From Sorex araneus (taxonomy: Eukaryota > Chordata > Mammalia > Eulipotyphla > Soricidae): a stretch of DNA of 64,000 nt. Under the pieces are notes generated by a model. It did no database searches, was not told where the DNA came from, and was given only the letters and a program-made list of their open reading frames with translations. Location: the NCBI RefSeq assembly GCF_027595985.1, contig NC_073305.1:27572134-27636133 (forward strand), read 5' to 3'. Position numbers and translations under genes: made by a program. Shown here piece after piece: positions 38,738-39,035 of this stretch (position 1 is the stretch's first letter; each line of letters starts with the position of its first letter).

Positions 38738-39035
38738 CAAGGCGTCGGAAATCAGATGGGCCAGACACGTAATGTGATTTAGAGATGACCTCTGCACTAG
38801 AGCTGTTACCAACTGGATTCCACGGGATGTCAAAAGACCACCTGGCAGCCCACCTATGAGATGATCTGACTTCTGTCAAAACCCTGAACGAACAGTTTGA
38901 GGCTCTTCGTGTTCCTGGAGCGAGCAGATACCATTGGGCTACACTAGCACGTGACAGGGACAAATGGAGAAATTAGTGGCGCCTGCTCAAGCAAATCGAA
39001 GATCAATGGGATGACAAGTGAGAAGTGAAAGATCA
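38738..39035 (+). mobile_element. RTE-type LINE, 3' end of reverse-transcriptase ORF
   Basis: A decayed coding remnant reads RWARHVM, TRAVTNWIPRDVKRPPG and SPPMR. After a frame slip it reads NEQFEALRVPGASRYHWATL, ARDRDKWRN and WRLLKQIEDQWDDK, ending in TGA at 39019-39021. This is the C-terminal region after the RT domain of RTE elements, closest in my memory to those of parasitic nematodes. It has at least three in-frame stops and a frameshift, so it is dead. Its last 60 bases strongly resemble the end of the long-class SINE. A horizontally acquired RTE in the common shrew has been published (RTE1_Sar, Dunemann and Wasmuth 2019, recalled without lookup). Confidence 0.85.

Follow-up and report, generated by a model that had tools for sequence, protein, structure and literature searches.

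Long-class SINEs of the common shrew appear to combine a tRNA-like head with segments from either end of an RTE retrotransposon

The 64-kb window analysed here, taken from the 2.406-Gb genome of Sorex araneus (65 contigs), contains a fragment of an RTE-type LINE and several SINE copies of a long class that end in a similar sequence. This raises the question whether these SINEs are mobilised by the LINE, and which parts of it they have taken up. We examined the window together with twenty 10-kb stretches distributed over contig C1; these 264 kb are called the sample below. The preliminary description had proposed that the two elements are a partner LINE and SINE. This relation is supported by the consensus sequences, the tail repeats and the insertion-site signature of the SINE, and it goes beyond what had been proposed, because the SINE body also appears to come from the 5'UTR of the RTE. 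Judging from sequence comparison, we consider it highly probable (about 0.9) that the long-class SINE is a tripartite RTE-parasitic element made of the head of a short SINE, a piece of the RTE 5'UTR and the RTE 3' end.

The RTE copy in the window is the following:

38723..39032, plus strand: RTE copy, 5'-truncated (from blastn to RTE copies, translation and a 31-copy 3' alignment)

This copy starts about 15 bases upstream of the position given previously (38738), and its blastn match to RTE copy L034 covers 38,723-39,021. It contains C-terminal ORF codons, a stop inside the tail repeat and a degenerate (worn) CAAGTGA-like tail; it is 5'-truncated and dead. The peptide reported for it, ...ARDRDKWRN*WRLLKQIEDQWDDK*, was found in the third frame of 38,738-39,036. 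Most of the 31 RTE 3' ends that we aligned finish in GATGACAAGTGA with TACAAGTGA or CAAGTGA units after it, and the tail is a tandem repeat of ACAAGTGAT. The ORF ends at a stop codon within this tail repeat, so the RTE has almost no 3'UTR.

Alignment of the consensus 3' ends of the long SINE and the RTE showed significant identity, well above that of shuffled sequences. Over the last 53 nt, the SINE was identical to the raw majority RTE consensus at 46/53 positions (score 71); CpG correction of that consensus raised this to 49/53 (score 86). The best of 5,000 Markov shuffles with the CpG-corrected consensus scored 28. The short SINE, used as a control, reached a score of 10 with the RTE 3' end and of 20 with the 5'UTR. 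The common 3' end of the long SINE and the RTE fragment, previously put at about 60 bases, is borne out with a length of 53 bases. The long-SINE consensus (21 copies) ends with ...AATGGAGACGTTACTGGTGCCCGCTTGAGCAAATCGATGAGCAACGGGATGAC and continues with ACAGTGAT repeats that keep the register of the RTE tail. The tandem tail in place of poly-A, also part of the original claim, is exemplified by 3.1 units of ACAGTGAT at 51,808-51,832. A blastn search of the window with the RTE fragment found eight other 3' ends (E 1.8e-14 to 3.1e-5). One of them, at 42,529, is part of an ORF-less RTE derivative; the remaining seven, including that at 3,584, lie in long-SINE-like copies.

The RTE-like peptides noticed previously in SINE copies are present as well, ERRYWCLQEQIYEQQDDSDSD in 14,540-14,650 and ERCYWCLLEQIEQWDDNDS in 31,370-31,460. 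In this reading they are a by-product of DNA homology, because the difference between an 8-nt and a 9-nt tail unit abolishes the RTE stop frame. Conservation of the peptides was not taken as a sign of coding, the DNA homology being enough to explain it. A search for an RNA fold or hairpin common to the tails gave no support (z -1.6, 0.1 and 1.3). The ORF ending was of the IEDQ type (GAAGATCAA) in 24 of the 31 sampled RTE 3' ends and a variant or unclassed in six; the IDEQ ending (GACGAACAA) was seen only in L034, this type being under-sampled because 29 of the 31 ends entered the set as the closest matches to the window copy. The window copy itself ends in IEDQ, and the long SINE reads GATGAGCAA (IDEQ); its tail is thus nearer to an IDEQ-type RTE than to the RTE copy of the window.

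Comparison of the SINE body (nt 66-176) with an RTE 5'UTR consensus, built from five 5'UTRs of which one is partial, gave 103/111 identical positions and a score of 182, against 31 at most in 2,000 shuffles. The alignment shows the body to be, at the level of sequence, an internal piece of the RTE 5'UTR; this larger part had been overlooked in the preliminary description. Both segments are held by a single RTE copy, L034, which matched SINE nt 66-176 at 95/111 positions and the SINE tail at 43/54. When the SINE consensus was used as a BLAST query, 15 matches fell on the SINE middle only, without the head. The layout of the long SINE is therefore a tRNA-like head (nt 1-66), the 5'UTR piece (66-176), the last 53 nt of the RTE ORF region (184-236) and the repeat tail. 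The heads of the long and short SINE consensuses are identical at 65/66 positions. ARAGORN called a tRNA in two window copies of the short SINE and in no long copy. The copies in the window are these:

36175..36429, plus strand: long SINE, head-body-tail, candidate target duplication CTAATCTGAA
33668..33879, plus strand: long SINE, head-body-tail, head from consensus nt 25
3135..3380, minus strand: long SINE, head-body-tail, candidate target duplication ATAATACT
3524..3723, minus strand: long SINE, diverged, head-body-tail, candidate target duplication TACTCTTTTTA
41756..41979, minus strand: long SINE, head-body-tail
31225..31440, plus strand: long SINE, 5' truncated (the copy previously placed at 31.38 kb)
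51629..51832, plus strand: long SINE, 5' truncated, ACAGTGAT tandem tail
14549..14636, plus strand: long SINE, 3' part (the copy previously placed at 14.57 kb)
50736..50819, minus strand: long SINE, 3' part
54143..54220, plus strand: long SINE, 3' part
39309..39490, plus strand: short SINE, A-tail, head matching the long-SINE head, duplication AAAACTAATTTGTGATT

The primers and probe of a published shrew SINE, labelled SA_Ba-325L16 (PMC8608897), were identical to the short-SINE consensus at 19/20, 17/17 and 18/20 positions, one 18-base primer contributing only its 17 unambiguous bases. The short SINE is probably Sor, which a passage of PMC11240701 describes as a T-minus SINE. If this assignment is right, the likeness of the Sor family of shrews to the long SINE lies in the head; the short class differs from the long SINE by its A-tail and L1-like duplications.

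In copy L034 (5899..1665, minus strand) the body-type match is followed by the ORF start (MTVCTFNTHTLA...), endonuclease-like and reverse transcriptase frames and, 4.2 kb away, the RTE 3' end. It is longer than expected and probably has an insert inside. A 401-nt query from its 5' region gave 40 listed genome matches, itself included, all with at least 85% identity; the matches listed cover at least 388 nt in 39 of 40 cases and 363 nt in one. Since all 40 span the body and the ORF start, body, spacer and ORF start travel together. One 5' match, C2:327005916, has a 3' end on the same strand at C2:327008588-327009051, which makes an RTE element of about 3.1 kb. The idea of the RTE as a uniform 459-nt element was dropped, as the common start merely mirrored the truncated 5' end of L009, the copy used as query. 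The frame of L020 matched the Pfam reverse transcriptase domain RVT_1 (E 1.1e-27), that of L034 stayed just under the cut-off (E 3.3e-6), and ten PDB sequences (R2, L1 ORF2, RT-like) matched with E values from 4.2e-17 to 4.3e-10. By these matches, the RTE encodes a real reverse transcriptase of the non-LTR type. The endonuclease match, to Exo_endo_phos, was weak (E 0.0077, under the gathering score) and came from one broken copy, L034. A scan of viral contigs for relatives of the RTE found none. The element is apparently RTE1_Sar, going by host and clade.

The same DNA contains elements that have both RTE ends and no ORF. Three were found in the window:

42474..42799, minus strand: ORF-less RTE derivative with 5'UTR body, spacer, RTE 3' end and (GAT)n tail, without tRNA head
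53899..54122, plus strand: ORF-less RTE derivative with body, spacer and 3' end
28195..28368, plus strand: ORF-less RTE derivative, 5' truncated, with spacer and 3' end

A census of chained part matches in the sample counted 18 head-body-tail and 3 body-tail SINE chains. The ORF-less chains comprised 4 with RSX5 (our name for the 5' segment that these elements carry in place of that of the RTE), body, spacer and tail, 4 with body, spacer and tail, and 1 with spacer and tail. There were further 5 partial chains with RSX5 or spacer and without tail, 11 tail-only matches, which include the 3' ends of the window RTE and of L034, 1 chain of the PRE-BODY-SPACER type, which is L034 itself, and 3 other partial chains. 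The head was absent from 13/13 spacer chains and the spacer from 18/18 head-body-tail chains in the sample. Three elements, L041, L039 and L047, combine all or part of the spacer with a ACAGTGAT tail, and in L032 (8615-8810) a SINE-type body is joined directly to about 120 nt of the RTE 3' end with a ACAGTGAT tail, at a junction unlike that of the SINE. These four look like intermediates, each being a single copy. L047 also shows tandem bodies (5923-6344): the first is of the ORF-less type, and the second resembles the SINE but has a spacer and a ACAGTGAT tail.

The tripartite SINE would have arisen in a few steps. An RTE RNA may have lost its ORF, giving ORF-less elements of the type 5'UTR-spacer-3' end, and a further deletion would have taken out the spacer. 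A short-SINE head with its predicted pol III promoter would then have been joined upstream, perhaps via template switching. The RTE protein would recognise the common 3' end and tail repeat and copy the SINE RNA by target-primed reverse transcription. We give even odds to the full history in which a horizontally shared RTE, once settled in shrews, left ORF-less copies, one of which was shortened and captured the head of an L1-type SINE, so that a pol III promoter moved from L1 to a foreign LINE, with about 190,000 SINE copies as the outcome and intermediates that can still be read. The copy number was obtained by scaling 21 head-body-tail or body-tail chains per 264 kb to 2.4 Gb.

It is quite possible, if somewhat short of an even chance, that the SINE descends not directly from a full-length RTE but by way of an older family of ORF-less RTE elements, made of body, spacer and 3' end and often tailed with GAT; its RTE source may then differ from RTE1_Sar. 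The tail-bearing chains (4 + 4 + 1) and the further partial ones in the 264-kb sample show that such elements share the same DNA, L041, L039 and L047 join all or part of the spacer to the SINE-type tail, and two ORF-less bodies are as near to the SINE consensus as the RTE is (L047 with 91%, and window 53,899 with 93% over 46 nt). Most ORF-less bodies, however, are only 77-82% identical to the SINE consensus, whereas the individual RTE copies L034 and L019 reach 86% and 88%. In L033, L046 and window 42474-42799, the 5' segment upstream of the body is unlike the RTE 5'UTR, and the tail of ORF-less elements is often GAT. The unlike 5' segment and the frequent GAT tail suggest that the ORF-less elements stem from an older RTE lineage.

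A transfer of the body in the opposite direction, from the SINE into the 5'UTR of the RTE, with the tail alone passing from RTE to SINE, seems very improbable. LINEs can exchange 5'UTRs, and the segment upstream of the body does differ between the RTE and the ORF-less elements. Body and spacer, however, are common to the full-length RTE and the ORF-less elements and the SINE is without spacer, so that a single deletion is enough to account for the SINE. In the RTE the tail is part of the coding sequence, and its transfer was therefore most likely from RTE to SINE.

The insertion sites of the two SINE classes were compared by means of target duplications, with a threshold score of 8 for both and again with a score of 10, the control being a shuffled downstream flank. 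At score 8, duplications were found in 12/20 long SINEs (shuffled 0/20) and 47/76 short SINEs (shuffled 12/76); at score 10, in 8/20 long (shuffled 0) and 43/76 short SINEs (shuffled 2). At score 8, the duplication started with AA in 0/12 long and 33/47 short SINEs (p 9e-6; 2e-4 at score 10), the short-SINE count being possibly helped by matches that extend into the A-tail. The long SINE started with AT in 6/12 and TA in 3/12 cases. The median duplication length was 10.5 nt for the long and 15 nt for the short SINE (p 1e-5 and 6e-5 at scores 8 and 10). TTT was found at -15..-7 in 8/12 long and 6/47 short SINEs (p 4e-4 and 8e-3) and the T content at -14 to -8 was 57% and 28%, respectively (p 4e-4 and 7e-3), in intervals that were picked post hoc, after the profile and PMC13295347 had been seen, and with only 12 long-SINE duplications. 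The T content of a control interval, -22 to -16, was not significantly different (p 0.10 and 0.11). An insertion signature of a T stretch plus TA has been described for RTE-clade LINEs and their SINEs in the part of PMC13295347 available to us. The long SINE has insertion sites unlike those of the short SINE; in this small sample they resemble the published RTE-type (Tn-TA) signature and point to the RTE machinery. That the long SINE is instead mobilised by L1 like the short SINE, with the RTE-like tail as a passenger, is hardly credible: the two share their head (65/66), but the long SINE has no poly-A and differs in duplication start, duplication length and T-rich flank, so that even the small set of duplications disfavours L1.

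The duplications of the RTE itself were weakly resolved: of 25 tested copies whose 5' end lay within the locus, five exceeded their shuffles. In six further candidates the 5' end fell beyond the locus, and a few 5' ends are mis-chained. The duplications of the five copies (L007, L009, L010, L015 and L020) start with C, C, A, T and A, respectively, and TTT was seen by eye about ten bases upstream in 3/5. With so few RTE duplications resolved, it is mainly PMC13295347 that supports the signature on the LINE side.

The preliminary description had also suggested comparing insertion ages. This was done; the ranges of SINE and RTE overlap and do not give their order. In local alignments, where loss of the diverged ends biases the values downwards, non-CpG divergence was 0.030-0.086 (mean 0.062, n=22) for the long SINE, 0.014-0.056 for RTE 3' ends (n=31, biased young, 29 being best matches to the window copy), 0.026, 0.056 and 0.116 for three RTE copies in the window and C1 sample, and 0.022-0.332 (n=75) for the short SINE. 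In full alignments with CG/TG/CA masked, it was 0.037-0.148 (mean 0.092, n=20) for the long SINE and 0.034-0.151 (n=8) for the ORF-less elements, and had a mean of 0.062 for the RTE (n=31; inflated by truncated copies aligned with foreign flank, with values up to 0.328). These copy-to-consensus ages do not establish that the RTE preceded the SINE. The short SINE has both older and younger copies than the long SINE, and the narrower age span of the latter fits a dependence on a limited period of RTE activity.

The parallel with Bov-tA and BovB drawn at the outset is apt. The accessible part of PMC3747384 includes Bov-tA and Bov-A2 among the RTE-type SINE/LINE pairs of its Table 1; like the shrew long SINE, these ruminant elements unite a tRNA head with sequence of an RTE-clade LINE, BovB. 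Bov-A2 is also listed there with the BovB 5' end, comparable, by the table description, to the shrew body derived from the RTE 5'UTR. The shrew element differs in its LINE, in its tRNA head, here common with the short SINE, and in its tail repeat. RTESINE1, MAR4 and RTE1-N1_LA, as described in the same part of that paper, are non-autonomous and combine an RTE 5' end with an RTE tail, like the ORF-less elements of the shrew; the entry for their 5' part names an RTE 5' end and no tRNA. AfroSINE, SINE2-1_EC, Sauria SINE and Ped-1/Ped-2 have a 3' end in common with an RTE-clade LINE, as has the shrew SINE; the entries in that part give tRNA or 5S heads and LINE tails for them and mention no 5'UTR-derived body (PMC3747384). 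The T-stretch plus TA insertion signature was described for a horse SINE family and Sauria SINEs (PMC13295347, in part). The architecture of the shrew SINE parallels that of Bov-tA/Bov-A2/BovB, being made from both RTE ends, and an unusually full set of related forms is present in one genome.

An RTE shared between the common shrew and parasitic nematodes has been reported, with the direction of transfer left open; the word SINE does not occur in the available text of that report (PMC6542046), nor do shrew or Sorex in PMC3747384. In the literature searched we found no report of an RTE-derived shrew SINE, which may be deposited in Repbase, Dfam or SINEBase. BovB is described as horizontally transferred in the portion of PMC6036668 at hand. 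Host short elements of the shrew seem to ride on a foreign retrotransposon, and if this is true, they add a further mammalian case, beside BovB in ruminants, of a reportedly horizontally acquired RTE exploited by host SINEs, with what look like intermediate forms kept in the shrew genome. The common head makes the two SINEs a natural pair for studying the role of the 3' end, since one promoter region is combined with two LINE machineries and two insertion signatures. Dating by presence or absence of the SINE across shrew genera would bound the date of the RTE transfer.

The window RTE copy lies just upstream of an open exon, MDALVEDDICILNHEKGHRRDTPVSIYSGDESVASHFALVTAYEDIKKRLKDSEKENSFLKRRIRILEEK, at window 38029-38239 (minus strand). 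A Pfam search with this exon gave no match; we take it to be the start of AZI2 (NAP1). A perfect AGGA microsatellite of 20.8 copies occupies window 34054-34136.
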